Assembly (NCBI RefSeq): GCF_002872335.1
Contig: NZ_NJAG01000002.1
Span: 186,001 to 250,000, forward strand
Source: Siphonobacter sp. BAB-5405
GTDB taxonomy: Bacteria > Bacteroidota > Bacteroidia > Cytophagales > Spirosomataceae
Reading direction: 5' to 3'
Length of the DNA: 64,000 bases
Both the position numbers and the translations under genes were made by a program. Position 1 is the stretch's first letter; every line of letters begins with the position of its first letter. Shown here one piece after another: positions 7,979 to 29,994 of the stretch. The notes below the pieces were generated by a model. That model was not told where the DNA came from. It did not search any database and saw only the letters and a program-made list of their open reading frames with translations.

Positions 7979-10723
7979 ATGAACGGTGATCAAAACGCAT
8001 TTGATTCTATCCAGAATTTATCTGGACAACTTGATATCCAGTTTGCCTTAGTAGCCACAGGATTAGGCGTCTGGGAACTTAACATTTCGACCAACCAAGT
8101 CCTATGGGATGATCGCTGCCGGGCCTTGTTTGGACTGGCACAGGATCACGTTATTCCTTACGAACAGGCCGTCCAATTTATCCATCCAGATGATGTAGAT
8201 CGCGTCAACACGGCTGTGCAGCAAGCCTTGACGGGTGAGTCAAATGGGAACTACGATCAAACCTACCGCACTATTGGAGCTGATGATGGCATCCTGCGGT
8301 GGGTACGCTTCCACGGTAGAGCCTATTTTAGCCAAACCGGCGATCCGTATCGCTTTGGTGGGGTAGCCCAGGATGTCACCCAACAAGTATACACTCAACA
8401 GTCACTGGTAGCCAGCGAAGCCCGGTTTAAAAACTTAGTGGCGGCTACCCCAGCGGCTACAGCCGTCTTCGTCGGCAGGGATATGCTCATTCAGCAGGTG
8501 AACGCCCCGATGCTGGCTATCTGGGGTAGGGACAAATCGGTACTTGGTAAAACACTCCTGGTAGCAATGCCTGAATTGGAACAACAGCCATTTTTAGCCC
8601 AGCTTCAGCATGTTTTTGATACCGGTGAACCGTTTCGGCACTCGGAAGGGGTGGCATATCTACTAACAGACGGACAACCCAAGACGGTTTATTTCAATCA
8701 TGCGTATAATCCACTCTATGATCAGGACGGATTTGTTTACGGAGTGATTAATACGGCCATTGACGTTACGGAGCAAGTAAGGGCCCGGCAGGCACTTCAA
8801 GATAGCGAAGCCCGCTTTAGCAACATCATCCAGCAGTCGCCAGCCGCCACGCTGGTGTTACGAGGGAATAAGTTTGTGATTGATCAGATCAACACCTCCA
8901 TGCTCGCCTTTTTTGGGAGGGGTGAGGAAGTGATTGGGCAGCCCCTGCTCGCCGTGATGCCGGAACAGAAGGAGCAGTTTGCCTGGCAACAGGCACAGCG
9001 GGTTTATTATGAAGGCATCACTTTTGATGAAAAAGAGGTCTTGGTGACTCATAAACGAACGGGAGTCATGCAGGAATACTATTATGATGTTGCGTATCGC
9101 CCTTTGCTGGAGGGCGGCCACATCACGGGTATGATTCAGGTCATCACGGACGTGACGGCACACGTACAGGCTCGCCGACAGCTCGAAGAAAGTGAAGCAA
9201 AGCTGAGCCTATTGAGCAACACGGTGCCCTCGATGATTTTTTACCTGGATCAGCAGCAACGTTACGTTTCTTATAATAAAACCTTTCAGGACTGGTTCGA
9301 CGTCGATGCCGATGAGGTCATTGGCCAAAGCGTACGGGAATTCATTGGTGAACAGGCCTATCAACAAGTAGCCCCACATTTGGCGGTTGCCTATGCAGGC
9401 CAGCCCGAACGCTATGAGCTGGCAGCTCCTTCCCGCGTAGGAACACAGCGGTGGCTGGATATTACTTATACACCTCACCATAACGAAGTAGGAGAACTGC
9501 TGGGAGTGATTGTACTGGCTAGCGACATCAGTACCCAGATGCAGGTTCGCAGAGCTTTGGAAGAGAGTAGCAATTCGTTGCAAAGTGCAATTGAGGTGGC
9601 CGGGCTAGGCACCTTTAGTGTGGATATTGCCAGTAATCTGTTAACCTGCTCGGCTCCCGTAGCCGAATGGTTTGGTTTTGATAGCCTAACGGCGGATACT
9701 GAAACGTTCATTGGCGGAGTGGGCGAAGCCGAGCAGGATTACGTGCGTGATCATCTGCAAAACACCATTCTAGCAGGACCTGAGGCCCGCTACAACGTGA
9801 CCCACTCGATCATTAACAGTAAAACGGGCCACCGAACGCTGATTCACGCCTTAGGACGGGTTTATTTCGATGCAAACGGGAAGCCGCTTAAAGTCCTCGG
9901 TATCGCTCAGGACATCACCGCCCAACGGGAGTTGCAGCAGGTCCTCGAGAACCAGGTTCAGCAACGAACCCAGGAGCTGACCTTGGCCAATCAGGACCTC
10001 AAACGCTCCAATGACAATTTACAGCAGTTTGCTTACGTAGCCTCACACGATCTTCAGGAGCCCCTACGCAAGATTCTGTCCTTTAGCAATTTGCTTAGTC
10101 TACGCCTGGGCGATAGACTCGATTCCAACATCACCGACTATCTGGATCGCATCAATAAGTCCAGTGAACGGATGTCTAGCCTGATCAAAGACCTGCTAGA
10201 ATTCTCCCGCATCGCGGTACGTCAACAGGAATTTGGTCCTGTCTCGGTAGATGCGGTAGTAGCGGGCGTATTGGATACGCTTTCCCTGGAAATTGAACAA
10301 CGTCAGGCCTACATTCATATAGACGATCTGCCCGTTGTTAAAGGAGATGCTCAACAACTCAGTCAGCTGTTTCAAAACTTGCTTTCCAATGCACTAAAAT
10401 TCACGCCTGCGGGGCAAGCTCCTCAGGTGCGGATAGAATATTTTCAACGGCAGCTTCATGAATTGCCGCCCGAAGTATTACCCCAACGTACAGCTCCTTA
10501 TTATCACCAGTTCAGTGTGAGCGACCAGGGCGTAGGCTTTGACACCAAGTATCTGGACCGAATCTTCCAGGTATTTCAGCGGCTGCATACTAAAAGTGAA
10601 TTTGCAGGAACAGGGGTTGGTCTGGCCATTTGCCAACGCGTGGTAGAAAACCATGGAGGGGGCATCACGGCAAACAGTGAACTCGGTCAGGGAGCCACGT
10701 TCTGTGTGTATTTACCCGCCTAG
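7979..10723 (+). CDS. sensor histidine kinase, five PAS domains
   Basis: A 914-aa soluble kinase. ATG at 7979 (MNGDQNAFDS) is preferred over the in-frame TTG at 7934, because the extra residues are unlike the family. Five PAS/PAC units cover about 25-650, with repeated joints such as DVTEQVRARQAL. A short coiled linker (QVQQRTQELTLANQ) leads to a phytochrome-type HisKA with His690 in YVASHDLQEPLRK. HATPase_c follows, with N box NLLSNALKF and G boxes DQGVGF and GTGVGLAICQRV. There is no receiver, so a separate response regulator is required; none is adjacent. This type belongs to the phytochrome-like kinases common in Cytophagales. Signal unknown. Confidence 0.93.
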   Translation: MNGDQNAFDSIQNLSGQLDIQFALVATGLGVWELNISTNQVLWDDRCRALFGLAQDHVIPYEQAVQFIHPDDVDRVNTAVQQALTGESNGNYDQTYRTIGADDGILRWVRFHGRAYFSQTGDPYRFGGVAQDVTQQVYTQQSLVASEARFKNLVAATPAATAVFVGRDMLIQQVNAPMLAIWGRDKSVLGKTLLVAMPELEQQPFLAQLQHVFDTGEPFRHSEGVAYLLTDGQPKTVYFNHAYNPLYDQDGFVYGVINTAIDVTEQVRARQALQDSEARFSNIIQQSPAATLVLRGNKFVIDQINTSMLAFFGRGEEVIGQPLLAVMPEQKEQFAWQQAQRVYYEGITFDEKEVLVTHKRTGVMQEYYYDVAYRPLLEGGHITGMIQVITDVTAHVQARRQLEESEAKLSLLSNTVPSMIFYLDQQQRYVSYNKTFQDWFDVDADEVIGQSVREFIGEQAYQQVAPHLAVAYAGQPERYELAAPSRVGTQRWLDITYTPHHNEVGELLGVIVLASDISTQMQVRRALEESSNSLQSAIEVAGLGTFSVDIASNLLTCSAPVAEWFGFDSLTADTETFIGGVGEAEQDYVRDHLQNTILAGPEARYNVTHSIINSKTGHRTLIHALGRVYFDANGKPLKVLGIAQDITAQRELQQVLENQVQQRTQELTLANQDLKRSNDNLQQFAYVASHDLQEPLRKILSFSNLLSLRLGDRLDSNITDYLDRINKSSERMSSLIKDLLEFSRIAVRQQEFGPVSVDAVVAGVLDTLSLEIEQRQAYIHIDDLPVVKGDAQQLSQLFQNLLSNALKFTPAGQAPQVRIEYFQRQLHELPPEVLPQRTAPYYHQFSVSDQGVGFDTKYLDRIFQVFQRLHTKSEFAGTGVGLAICQRVVENHGGGITANSELGQGATFCVYLPA

Positions 10724-25934: not shown

Positions 25935-26465
25935 TTGCATGGGCAGTAAAAAATAGGGCTTACTAGTTATTGAAGACACATCGTTACCTATTAGATTTGA
26001 ATTTTTTAAAGACATTGTACGCTACTTGTTCTCTTCCGTTCTTTACCAGCTCTATTTCAGCTGTCTATCCTTAAACATTGACTGATAAATTGGCTTATCA
26101 ATGTAATCCGAATGCTTATTACTGATCAGGTATGATCAATACCTTGATTTATACATAGCTCCTAGCAGTATCGTGTACGAAGCAGGCAGGTAATCGATAC
26201 GAACTTCTTTTCCATTTGTAGAGGTTCATCAAGCTGTTTTAACTTCTGCCAGTCCTACTGCTCGCCTTATGAGATGACGGGCCAAGAAACACGCCGATAC
26301 ACTTTCATCTTTTGAGTAAGTAAAAGAAAGTATCCGGACCATCCTGAAGATCTGATTTTTAACAACAGAATCTTACAAGTACTTATTTTTCAAGGAGATA
26401 CACCTGAATTCTAGGGGTTGTTTTATGGACAGATTAGGCCTGATTTTCTTCTTAAAATCTACTCT
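25935..26465. other. gap upstream of ncRNA A
   Basis: No convincing gene. The minus strand has short protein-like pieces (for example KQLDEPLQMEKKFV near 26220) interrupted by stops; too little to call. Confidence 0.3.
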
Positions 26466-26473
26466 ACTTTTGT
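26466..26473 (+). promoter_or_regulatory. -7 promoter element of ncRNA A
   Basis: TACTTTTG followed by T, an exact match to the Bacteroidota -7 consensus TAnnTTTGY. The same octamer stands at the same place in copy B (29645). No clear -33 TTG. Confidence 0.55.
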
Positions 26474-26479
26474 AAAGTC

Positions 26480-26737
26480 TCGTTTAATGAAGGTTCGTCA
26501 GACAACCTTTATTTCTTCAAGCAGGTTGAGGCTCTTTATCGGCGGTTTAGAGCCTCCTCCGTCAGTTGGATTGGTCATTCGGGGGATTTGAACAAAACAA
26601 CTGACGGAGTTCTGCAAGAAGGTCGTTCACGAGCCCTACAAGCTGTATCTTCTATCCAATCATCCGTTATCCTTCAACTTGCTTTAAACAAGTAAAAGAG
26701 GCTTTCTCAACTCATGCTGAGAAAACCTCTTTTTTTG
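26480..26737 (+). ncRNA. candidate structured RNA, copy A
   Basis: Non-coding element of about 255 nt with a homologue at 29659-29914. Structures read directly: hairpin I GAAGGTT/AACCTTT (near 26490-26512); hairpin II GAGGCTCT (26528-26535) with AGAGCCTC (26549-26556) around the 13-base loop TTATCGGCGGTTT; hairpin III CTCCGTCAGTTG (26557-26568) with CAACTGACGGAG (26598-26609); the conserved strings CTGCAAGAAGG and CGTTATCCTTCA; and a terminator hairpin (26694-26730) followed by seven T's. The 5' end is inferred from the -7 element. No ORF of note. Not recognised as 6S RNA, tmRNA, RNase P or SRP RNA. Confidence 0.65.
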
Positions 26738-26793
26738 CGTTTGAGCGGATCAATGCGGTACATCTTCACGGATTCACACCCGGAAAGTCAGCC

Positions 26794-27441
26794 CTATTTT
26801 ACAGTACTCAAAGCATGTTGCGTGAGTTTAACGGAAGCCTGATTGTAGTGAGAAATACCTTTCCACGTACCACTTACCGGGTAACGTTCTCCCGTTGTTT
26901 CATTTTCCAGAACGGCACTAAAAGAACAGCTCAGGTGATACGCTTCGATCTGACGATCAACCACGATGGTAGACTTAGGCGGAATCGCAATGTTCAGGGT
27001 TTCTTTCTGATACGATCCATACGGTTTTTGCTGCTCCCGGTTACTCAGGGGAAATGTTTCAGAAAATAATCCGTATGAATTGTCAGAGTACCACCGTTCC
27101 GGCACCCGAACGGAAAATTCACTCAGCTTTACCTCCTTCGGCAATGCATTGGGGGGCGTGACTTCAAAGGTTGACGTTTTAACCAGCTCGTCAAATGTAG
27201 TCGTGACTGTTTGCGTAGACACCTGTTCTCCTGGGTTCGAAACCGTTAGGCCTTTCAGTTTCACGGCTACCGTATCGAATCCACCCGAAGCCGGTTTAAA
27301 GTAGCGAACGTCCTTGAGTGCAAACGTGGCTGGAATCACTTCCTCCGGTTCAACGTTCGATGATTTGGAACACGAAAAGAACAATACCGAACACCATCCA
27401 CTTACTAGAATGAAGGATCGAAGAAAACCTGATTTTTTCAT
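26794..27441 (-). CDS. hypothetical lipoprotein, 215 aa
   Basis: ATG 27441 (MKKSGFLRSFIL) is preferred over 27453. The signal ends in a lipobox LFFSC. Mature sequence is beta-rich, with VTTTFDELVKTSTFEV and a C-terminal part GERYPVSGTWKGIS. Possibly a small Ig-like or lipocalin-like envelope protein, but no family is recognised. It is convergent with ncRNA A, whose terminator may serve both. Confidence 0.75.
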   Translation of the reverse strand: MKKSGFLRSFILVSGWCSVLFFSCSKSSNVEPEEVIPATFALKDVRYFKPASGGFDTVAVKLKGLTVSNPGEQVSTQTVTTTFDELVKTSTFEVTPPNALPKEVKLSEFSVRVPERWYSDNSYGLFSETFPLSNREQQKPYGSYQKETLNIAIPPKSTIVVDRQIEAYHLSCSFSAVLENETTGERYPVSGTWKGISHYNQASVKLTQHALSTVK

Positions 27442-28174
27442 GGCTGGAAACATAAAATGATTAAGCGTTTAGAGCATTCCTGCTCAAGATACGTGTAAAG
27501 GCTAAGAACGTAACCCTTAGGCTGAAAACTATTCGACGAAAGCGGATAAAAAACGACCATGCTCTGCGTAGAATCCTGCCCTTCTTCCGGATTGATCCGT
27601 TTGACTGAATCCTTCATTTGTGCGTAATGCCTTCGATCCGTAGCAGGTATACGCCGGGTTTGATCGTCTGTTAGGGATAGATCGCGGGACCTGATCACTG
27701 ATGCGGCTTCGGTCAAACAATAAGTTTTATTCCCGCCACGTGTTTATCTGTACGGACATCTGCTTATTGGTCTGAACATAGGTCGATAGCTCTTTTTGCT
27801 AGCGACGCGAGTGGGTTGTTCACGTCTGCTAAAAGAAAAGACAGCACAAGCAGCCTATCAACGCCAATGAAAGATGGATAGACAAGGGAGGCACAAACGG
27901 TTTTAGTACTGGAGCATGGTGTGATCAAGGGCTTATAACCAGACAAGGAACGCCAGATGAAGCATGCTTTTAATCACGTTTCGTTTCTGATTGCGTTCCA
28001 GCGTAATCAGACATCCCCGAAACCGGAACTTCCCCGTATGCAGCGTAAGAACGCTGCTTCACCCACCTCCTGAGAAATAGTTGAAATTCCTGGGTAACAT
28101 CCTGTTAATCAAAAGATTTTCATGGTATATTCGAAGAATCGCTTACCCATTTCTCCTCTCATCTGCTCATTACT
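27442..28174. other. gap, no supported gene
   Basis: Overlapping short minus-strand frames between 27438 and 27946 lack signals, family motifs or plausible composition. The last 100 bases upstream of 28175 should hold the promoter of the S74 protein. Nothing else seen. Confidence 0.35.
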
Positions 28175-29269
28175 ATGAAACCTCTTTTTTACACCATTGG
28201 ACTGATCGCCTGTTCTTTTTCTGCCCTTGCTCAAGTGGGGATCGGTACGGGTACTCCAAAAGCATTCCTGAACGTACCCGCTGGCAAAACGGTACTCTTT
28301 GGCGAGGATACCCTGGGGGCGGGTACCAAACTCATCTGGTATGCGAACAAGGGTGCCTTTCGAGCCGGATCCATCAGCGGACCGCAATGGAACGACGCCA
28401 ATGTGGGCATCAATTCGTTTTCAGTAGGTAAAAACACACTGGCTATCGGCAGCTCCAGTGTAGCCATTGGCGAAAATGCTTCTGCTTCGGGTACGCAATC
28501 CTTCGCGATTGGCTTCAGTGCAATCGCCGGTAATGACAATGCCGTAGCCATTGGTACCGGCAGTTCGGTAGCGGGTATGGGCTCCATCGCCATCGGTAAT
28601 AGTCAGGCTCGGGGAGCCTACGCGGTAGCCATTGGCTTACAAAACCGAGTGATTGCGAACTATAGCCTGGCCCTGGGTAGCAATGCCCGAGCCAATAAGC
28701 AGGGCTCCTGCGTGATTGGCGATGGTGCATATCTGTACGAGGCCGATAGCGTGTACAGTACCGCCATGAATCAAATGACCATGCGATTTTCGGGCGGGTA
28801 TCATTTATTCACTTCCGGAGGACCCCAGGCCCAGGCCGTGGGCGTACAGATTCTTCCGGGTGGTAATGCCTGGCAGACCATTTCTGACTCGACCCGAAAA
28901 GAGCATTTTCGCCCCGTGAACGGAGCCGCCTTTCTGGATAAAATTCGCCAGTTACGGCTGGGGTCCTGGAATTACAAAGGGCAGGATTCCAAACAATACC
29001 GACACTACGGTCCGATGGCTCAGGACTTTTTTGCGGCCTTCGGTAAGGATGAGTTAGGAACCATTGGCGAAGATAAATCGATTAATCAGGCGGATTTCGA
29101 TGGCGTAAACCTGATTGCCATTCAGGCACTGCTGGCTAAAATCGAAAGACTGGAGACGATGAACCAGGCCTTGCAGCAGGAAAACGCCAGTTTGCAACAG
29201 GAAACTGCCTCGCTAAAATCAGATGTTGACTGGATCAAGAAACAACTGGGCGGTATAGTCAAAAAGTAA
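28175..29269 (+). CDS. YadA-head-like repeat and S74 tail-fibre domain protein
   Basis: A 364-aa exported protein. Signal MKPLFYTIGLIACSFSALAQ, then a run of 14-16-residue repeats of the form xAxAIGxxSxAxG (about 80-175: LAIGSSSVAIGENASASG, NAVAIGTGSSVAG), as in trimeric adhesin heads. Next comes a Peptidase_S74 intramolecular chaperone domain (about 235-310: SDSTRKEHFRPVNG, HYGPMAQDFFAAFG) and a C-terminal coiled coil (about 315-360). In Bacteroidota such tail-fibre-domain proteins are usually surface or secreted trimers rather than phage genes, and no phage genes are near. Self-cleavage at the S74 domain is known in the family, but the catalytic residues cannot be checked here. Confidence 0.88.
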   Translation: MKPLFYTIGLIACSFSALAQVGIGTGTPKAFLNVPAGKTVLFGEDTLGAGTKLIWYANKGAFRAGSISGPQWNDANVGINSFSVGKNTLAIGSSSVAIGENASASGTQSFAIGFSAIAGNDNAVAIGTGSSVAGMGSIAIGNSQARGAYAVAIGLQNRVIANYSLALGSNARANKQGSCVIGDGAYLYEADSVYSTAMNQMTMRFSGGYHLFTSGGPQAQAVGVQILPGGNAWQTISDSTRKEHFRPVNGAAFLDKIRQLRLGSWNYKGQDSKQYRHYGPMAQDFFAAFGKDELGTIGEDKSINQADFDGVNLIAIQALLAKIERLETMNQALQQENASLQQETASLKSDVDWIKKQLGGIVKK

Positions 29270-29287
29270 GAAAGGTATATGCCAACG

Positions 29288-29397
29288 AAAAAGCCTACGC
29301 GTCGTCACGGGTAGGCTTTTTTGTGAACCCGTCTTCAAAGCCGCCACTTCTCTGACTGATTCAGTAGTACAAACGTATAGCCGAGAGCCCAGCTAAG
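29288..29397. repeat. dispersed ~110-bp repeat, copy 2, with terminator
   Basis: AAAAAGCCTAC/GTAGGCTTTTTT terminator (29288-29321) after the S74 gene, then the 74-base tail TGAACCCGTCTTCAAAGC to GAGAGCC, which is also found at 16812-16922. Confidence 0.75.
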
Positions 29398-29644
29398 TTA
29401 TGTGAATTCGACCAACGGGTTCATTTTCCCCCTGAAGCGTAAACTTTACCTGGTGTTGTGTACGCATCTTAAACGGCTTGTCTACTGAGGCTAATCCGCA
29501 TTTTTCGTTCTGAAAAGTGAAACCCATGGGTGATTTGACCCTTCGCCCCGATACCAGATGATGTTTTTTGATGCGGGAATACAGCTAAAACTGGGGGTAT
29601 AGATCCGGACAAATTAAGCCGGCGTGTGGTACCTTAAAGTCCGC
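29398..29644. other. gap upstream of ncRNA B
   Basis: No gene seen. The last 40 bases (GGACAAATTAAGCC and TTAAAGTC) match the region upstream of ncRNA A. Confidence 0.35.
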
Positions 29645-29652
29645 TACTTTTG
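29645..29652 (+). promoter_or_regulatory. -7 promoter element of ncRNA B
   Basis: TACTTTTG followed by T, identical to the element at 26466; consensus TAnnTTTGY. Confidence 0.55.
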
Positions 29653-29658
29653 TAGGGT

Positions 29659-29914
29659 CTCAATTAGCAGAGGTTCATTTACGTAGCCTTTGCTCCTGTG
29701 AAGCAGGGAGGTTCTTTATCGGCGGTTGGGAACCTCACCCGTACGTTCACTGGTTAGGCAGGGGAATAACTACCCAGTGAACCGATGGCAGCCTGCAGGA
29801 AGGATTTTGAGCAGCAAGCAGGTATTGAATACTATCCAACTTCGTTATCCTTCAGCTTGGATTCATTCCCCGATAAGGCTCCCTCTGCACTGCCTGAGGG
29901 AGCCTTACTTTTTT
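29659..29914 (+). ncRNA. candidate structured RNA, copy B
   Basis: Homologue of 26480-26737. Hairpin II is GAGGTTC (29708-29714) with GAACCTC (29730-29736): a C-G pair in copy A is T-A here, while the loop TTATCGGCGGTT is unchanged. Hairpin III is GTTCACTGG (29745-29753) with CCAGTGAAC (29774-29782), a different sequence from copy A but the same pairing. CTGCAGGAAGG and CGTTATCCTTCA are conserved. The terminator is TAAGGCTCCCTC/GAGGGAGCCTTA (29874-29907) followed by CTTTTTT. Compensatory changes support an RNA structure under selection. Confidence 0.65.
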
Positions 29915-29994
29915 GCCTAACCTTGTTCAGGCTACGGATCGCATGGATTTAAAAACTCCTCTTTTTGTAAATGATTCGCGAAAGTTTATACTAA

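Follow-up and report, generated by a model that had tools for sequence, protein, structure and literature searches.

What are the two similar structured elements at 26480-26737 (w1) and 29659-29914 (w2) of the window, the 64,000-nucleotide (nt) stretch of Siphonobacter sp. BAB-5405 DNA analyzed here (bases 186001-250000 of contig C43 in a genome of 6.49 Mb and 246 contigs, labeled G000)? An initial annotation had described them as twin elements in intergenic DNA, each with a -7 promoter element, TACTTTTG, hairpins I, II, and III, the strings CTGCARGAAGG and CGTTATCCTTCA, and a terminator-type hairpin. Both copies were located at these places with all of these features (Table 1) and with no open reading frame (ORF) of at least 80 amino acids over either one. 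The count of two copies, however, has to be replaced by two of ten in this genome, and two conserved features, a closing helix (P2, GCAGG/CCTGC) and an upstream site, were absent from the earlier description. The comparisons set out below suggest that w1 and w2 are members of a new multicopy family of folded small RNAs (sRNAs), so far seen in Siphonobacter only.

Six Siphonobacter genomes (G000 to G005), several of them drafts, were compared. A DNA search using w1 found additional places on three contigs, and a covariance model built from six sequences (R1) returned 19 members in total. G000 has ten of them, G001 six, and G002, G003, and G005 one each; G004 has none. Members of one genome are taken as paralogues, and the copies bear contig labels (in G000, w1, w2, C37, C163a, C163b, C45f, C45r, C97, C43c, and C12). 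A second model (R2), built from 17 members and matching those 17 by construction, recovered the same member set; C43c was dropped under stricter filters and regained in another R2 run. The weakest members (G5, C97, and C43c) were first matched by R1 at E-values of 4e-4 to 7e-4 per genome, which are rough because of a shortened calibration, and the evidence for the family comes from five genomes of a single genus. For C12 and its orthologue G1c6, the match was restricted to hairpin III. A variant that retains hairpin III and the upstream site but has no hairpin II was seen at L032:9140-9450 and L050:9600-9950; its 3' string, ATCCACCCACCTATA, resembles one in several full members. On a 4.4 kb contig, two members stand head to head (L033:1714-2171), with their upstream sites adjacent between them.

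The predicted RNA begins with hairpin I, followed by helix P2, whose two parts of five pairs each enclose hairpin II and the long hairpin III. Covariation was assessed over 17 of 20 matches, after removal of C12 and G1c6 (hairpin III only) and of an antisense self-match of w1 hairpin III. In the model-fitted alignment (A4), 88.9% of 649 cells were paired compared with 75.5% in shuffles, and two-sided changes were found at 33 of 41 pairs compared with 15.9 in shuffles. In the sequence-only alignment (A5), 85.3% were paired compared with 78.0% in shuffles, two-sided changes were found at 24 of 33 pairs (12.2 in shuffles), and a 1- to 3-column shift of the partner lowered pairing to 35.6 to 49.8%; these A5 counts use a structure derived from w1, so that the slid controls are biased in its favor, and the shuffles ignore relatedness. 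Run unaided on A5, RNAalifold recovered hairpin III alone, with two-sided changes at 14 of 15 pairs, and helix P2 and hairpin II are supported by the A4 and A5 pair counts, not by RNAalifold. Because the A4 pair cells contained 82 G-U but 18 A-C combinations, the plus strand of the window is favored. The earlier observation that the hairpin III stems of w1 and w2 differ while their pairing is kept thus extends to a wider sample, in which covariation exceeded the controls. Overall, the predicted fold is kept among the copies while their sequence diverges.

The unpaired parts are less uniform than the two window copies had implied. Loop TTATCGGCGGTT of hairpin II, thought almost invariant, is exact in w1, its orthologue, w2, and C37 but is not a constant of the family (4 of 19), and string CGTTATCCTTCA is exact in w1 and w2 but only there, several members having a different 3' string. 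The loop of hairpin III carries GGGGA in 15 of the 19 members; in a sixteenth, C97, GGGGA sits outside the loop. This loop is central to a different explanation, in which copies made together would soak up an RNA-binding protein that recognizes it, in the style of CsrB and RsmZ, the protein being other than CsrA. CsrB and RsmZ titrate CsrA; they are co-activated, redundant RNAs with GGA-type loops, many sites being repeated in CsrB, and the GacA-controlled rsm RNAs likewise combine multiple copies with a common upstream site. Titration would agree with a structure conserved beyond sequence, with the frequency of the GGGGA loop, and with several copies under one common upstream site. However, there is a single main G-rich loop per RNA rather than the many repeated sites of CsrB, four copies lack it, and no candidate protein was found. 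A CsrA sponge was rejected: unlike in the CsrB and RsmZ systems, CsrA was found in 0 of 6 Siphonobacter genomes (3 of 14 controls were positive). We regard titration by these RNAs as possible but unlikely. More doubtful is a full CsrB-like circuit without CsrA, in which an activator dedicated to the RNAs would drive about ten redundant copies whose hairpin III loop sequesters a Cytophagales RNA-binding protein.

Two other candidate functions were tried and rejected. For a loop-to-tail pseudoknot, the duplex energies of the apices of hairpins II and III with the 3' linker did not on average improve on shuffles, with mean z-scores of 0.05 and 0.20 over 17 copies and two single z-scores near -2. 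A coding function was rejected because the 34-codon ORF in w1 has no counterpart in its orthologue; no ORF conservation between orthologues was seen.

The enclosing helix also recalls a retron. In retron noncoding RNAs, a closing helix surrounds a short and a long hairpin, and the layout found here, with a long variable hairpin III, resembles it: P2 would correspond to the a1/a2 repeats, hairpin II to msr, and hairpin III to a reverse-transcribed msd. However, RVT_1 (PF00078) had 0 matches in G000 (3 of 14 controls positive), which speaks against a retron, no reverse transcriptase was present among the 20 window and neighbor proteins scanned, and most copies have a promoter site and a terminator-type hairpin of their own. 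We therefore assign a retron-type or other templating RNA almost no probability.

Upstream of the RNAs, 17 copies were aligned gap-free on TAnnTTT[GA], whose first T is the reference point for all positions. Common to these copies are box 1, CCYNAANNTTAGGGG, at -62 to -48 and box 2, AnATTAngCC, at -34 to -25, separated by 13 bases. The variant copies C12 and G1c6 have both boxes with the spacing of the other 17, measured from a TATGTTTG, as judged by eye, the script having anchored elsewhere. The site lies within 3 mismatches of the consensus in 15 of the 19 copies. When the six genomes were searched with a 20-position pattern at up to 3 mismatches, 17 hits were obtained: nine in G000, all at these RNAs, seven in G001, six of them at these RNAs, and one in G005, without an R2 match. 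The reversed pattern gave 7 hits across the six genomes, so that away from the RNA copies the site occurs no more often than expected by chance. The shared site suggests that one signal activates the whole set, and the regulator would be devoted to these RNAs, with the proviso that the search would miss genes whose sites are weaker. As a separate observation, G005:C27 contains near 9397 (L054:1485-1528) a long palindrome around CCCCCTAATATTAGGGGG, which is box 1-like and unmatched by R2; a 358-amino acid open frame begins ∼80 bases further. The palindrome may be bound by a related regulator or may be a coincidental match.

Transcription of w1 would start near 26478. Counted from the starts predicted in this way, a stem of at least 12 pairs with a T-rich tail was found in 13 of 19 copies, compared with 12 of 380 shuffles, ending 206 to 275 nt downstream; stems of at least 10 pairs begin 168 to 241 nt downstream. 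Three more copies have 10-pair stems, that of C163b falling within the region of a kinase gene. The predicted RNAs, from start to terminator, would be ∼205 to 275 nt long and, with their own putative promoter and terminator and no conserved ORF, would resemble sibling sRNAs.

The family appears to be narrowly distributed. R2 matched 5 of 222 genomes of the taxonomic family, all within one of 36 genera, and 2 of 390 sampled genomes of the order, in one of 129 genera; the 216 other family genomes and the other 128 genera of the order sample gave no R2 match in these scans, whose stricter filters and first-pass screen could lose distant relatives. The stem-and-loop pattern of hairpin III was present in one genome-collection record, an uncultured Siphonobacter sp. 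assembled from a metagenome (the collection may omit records closest to the window). None of the Rfam 15 covariance models reached its gathering score at w1, at w2, or at any locus of the other 17 copies. The elements had only two matches below threshold: fiv_FSE, with 15.9 bits (E 5) against a gathering score of 53, in hairpin III of w2, and Trp_leader, with 25 bits (E 0.76) against a gathering score of 41, within the 3' portion of the G3 copy. No 6S family of Rfam was matched at the loci of the copies; no whole-genome 6S search was made. Searches of open-licence literature on Siphonobacter, on sRNAs of Cytophagales, on structured RNAs and sRNAs of Bacteroidetes, and on multicopy sRNAs listed nothing that we recognized as this family and no paper on the sRNAs of Cytophagales, Siphonobacter included. 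The initial annotation had offered its functional RNA to be challenged by a covariance-model search for homologues and by Rfam; further homologues, with covariation over 17 members, and the lack of a family at threshold leave it standing.

Dispersed copies, one divergent pair of which lies on the short contig C45, might also be expected of a mobile or selfish repeat, such as an element like a miniature inverted-repeat transposable element, an insertion sequence end, an IStron, or a transposon guide RNA. However, aligned DNA between species spans the pairs C163a/G1a, C163b/G1b, C12/G1c6, and w1/G1w1, and C97 (G000) and the G3 copy (G003) agree in one flank, each being ∼1.2 kb from the point where the same aligned genes end. 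A transfer RNA gene ∼1.3 kb upstream of the RNA at both the G3 and C97 loci (L011:2876-2959, L023:107-190) is a further sign that this place is shared. Rather than the variable insertion sites of mobile elements, these five pairs appear to keep their place between species, as old chromosomal genes do. Copies w2 and G1w2 have the same flanks but fail to align themselves; the place comparison is limited to these pairs, with C37, C45f, C45r, C43c, G1c9, G2, and G5 outside its scope. Further, the copies have diverged and covary, viral contigs did not match the hairpin III pattern, phages and plasmids did not match w1 (the only query used there), and no transposase family was present among the 20 scanned proteins. 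A mobile repeat is therefore very improbable, and the preference of the initial annotation for a functional RNA over a mobile DNA repeat is supported by covariation over 17 members, the G-U excess, the kept places, and the absence of any Rfam match reaching threshold.

Because genes for PAS and hybrid histidine kinases adjoin several copies, the RNAs could instead be cis-acting elements of these neighbors, controlling a kinase from its 3' end, for example. C163b and its orthologue G1b (L029:7941-8135, L036:8024-8225) point at the 3' end of a gene for a PAS hybrid histidine kinase, which lies <100 bases past the modeled core, and no clear terminator intervenes; read-through would be antisense to the last codons of the kinase gene. 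However, for the four loci on contigs C43 and C163, random placement gave p values of 0.055 and 0.085, which are not significant, and the orientation of the copies relative to the kinase varies. No copy was found in six more stretches that hold kinases of this subfamily, and the contigs of C97 and C12 are without a HATPase_c match. Such a kinase link is quite improbable.

We consider it reasonably probable that w1 and w2 are genes for sibling regulatory sRNAs, members of a new family that is co-activated and acts in trans on messenger RNAs. A single putative transcription activator would bind box 1 and box 2 at a fixed distance from TAnnTTTG promoters, and its binding would turn the copies on together. 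The RNA would fold into hairpin I and then P2 around hairpins II and III; this folded part may provide stability or a scaffold for protein binding, and the exposed conserved stretches, namely the 5' end, the GGGGA loop of hairpin III, and the 3' linker before the terminator, would act in trans on messenger RNAs, with an effect that may be additive between copies. By analogy, antisense action through these stretches would be our first choice, and protein titration the second. We infer, as the initial annotation had suggested as a possibility, a small regulatory RNA with a binding loop.

Several observations weigh against sibling sRNAs of this kind. C12 and G1c6 lack hairpin II, some other copies have a reduced one, and 4 of 19 copies are without the GGGGA loop, so that no exposed string is universal. 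C45r, G2, G3, and G5 escape the site search at 3 mismatches. The element TAnnTTT[GA] served as the anchor for choosing starts and is invariant by construction, and the site pattern was derived from the copies, its informative part being the scarcity of hits elsewhere. At the 3' side, the stems of C163b and G1w2 are weak, and G1b, G5, and C97 have no 10-pair stem by the script, although a plausible terminator stem can be seen by eye in C97, and the contig ends at G5. Finally, a ready-made scan of this region found terminator-like sites at the chance rate (3 compared with 3.9 in shuffles) and reported the w1 stem solely on the minus strand.

Table 1. Predicted features of the two window copies (positions in the window)
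Feature	Position	Strand	Evidence
w1 upstream site box 1, CCTGAATTCTAGGGG (family form CCYNAANNTTAGGGG)	26403..26417	+	fixed-phase column counts over 17 copies; pattern search
w1 upstream site box 2, AGATTAGGCC (family form AnATTAngCC)	26431..26440	+	fixed-phase column counts
w1 -7 promoter element TACTTTTG, TAnnTTTG type	26465..26472	+	sequence, column counts
w1 hairpin I, variable among copies	26486..26513	+	fold
w1 helix P2 5' strand, TCTTC AA GCAGG	26514..26525	+	fold and pair counts
w1 hairpin II, loop TTTATCGGCGGTTT	26528..26556	+	fold and pair counts
w1 long hairpin III, CTCCGTCAGTTG/CAACTGACGGAG, apical GGGGGAT	26557..26609	+	fold and pair counts, RNAalifold
w1 helix P2 3' strand, CTGC AA GAAGG	26612..26622	+	fold and pair counts
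w1 terminator-type hairpin with T tract	26694..26736	+	sequence, stem script
w2 upstream site box 1, AGCTAAAACTGGGGG	29583..29597	+	column counts, pattern search
w2 upstream site box 2, AAATTAAGCC	29611..29620	+	column counts
w2 -7 promoter element TACTTTTG	29645..29652	+	sequence, column counts
w2 hairpin I	29666..29694	+	fold
w2 helix P2 5' strand, terminal GCAGG	29703-29707	+	fold and pair counts
w2 hairpin II, loop TTTATCGGCGGTT	29708..29736	+	fold and pair counts
w2 hairpin III, GTTCACTGG/CCAGTGAAC, apical AGGGGAA	29737..29790	+	fold and pair counts
w2 helix P2 3' strand, CCTGCAGGAAGG	29792..29803	+	fold and pair counts
w2 terminator-type hairpin with T tract	29875..29915	+	sequence, stem script; absent from scan-tool list

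Between w1 and w2, at 28175-29269 of the window, lies a gene with YadA-head and Peptidase_S74 (endosialidase chaperone) matches, and the same interval of G001 holds a 907-amino acid FG-GAP repeat protein (L035:8814-11537); the two RNAs thus frame a slot of variable content.

The sRNA work consulted for this phylum centers on Bacteroides, in which Hfq and ProQ have no obvious homologue (PMC7366714). The Siphonobacter family presents a case of RNA paralogues whose sequence diverges while fold and control region are kept, in which the common upstream site gives a handle for tracing the activator and the RNA a handle for partner pull-down. With several related copies in a genome, a similar fold, and apparent joint control, the family matches the pattern of sibling sRNAs, of which FopS and LhrC are examples. 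FopS of Bacteroides thetaiotaomicron comprises 14 paralogous sRNAs of ∼65 to 70 nt, 9 of them intergenic, with canonical sigma-ABfr promoters, and is reported across Bacteroidaceae (PMC11697453). The likeness lies in multicopy paralogous sRNAs of the same phylum, whereas the Siphonobacter RNAs, at a predicted ∼205 to 275 nt, are outside the FopS length, are highly folded, share an upstream site, and have been found in a single genus only, the comparison being one of descriptions and not of sequences; an R1' seed and RbpB binding would be further marks of a FopS member. Similarly, LhrC of Listeria comprises several sRNA genes under the LisRK two-component system (PMC4132741); multiple sRNA genes under one regulator are the shared trait, but phylum and promoter type differ, and the likeness is one of kind, with no homology claimed. 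Overall, the Siphonobacter RNAs would represent a new family of a known kind, outside the Rfam families and with an unusually clear shared upstream site.

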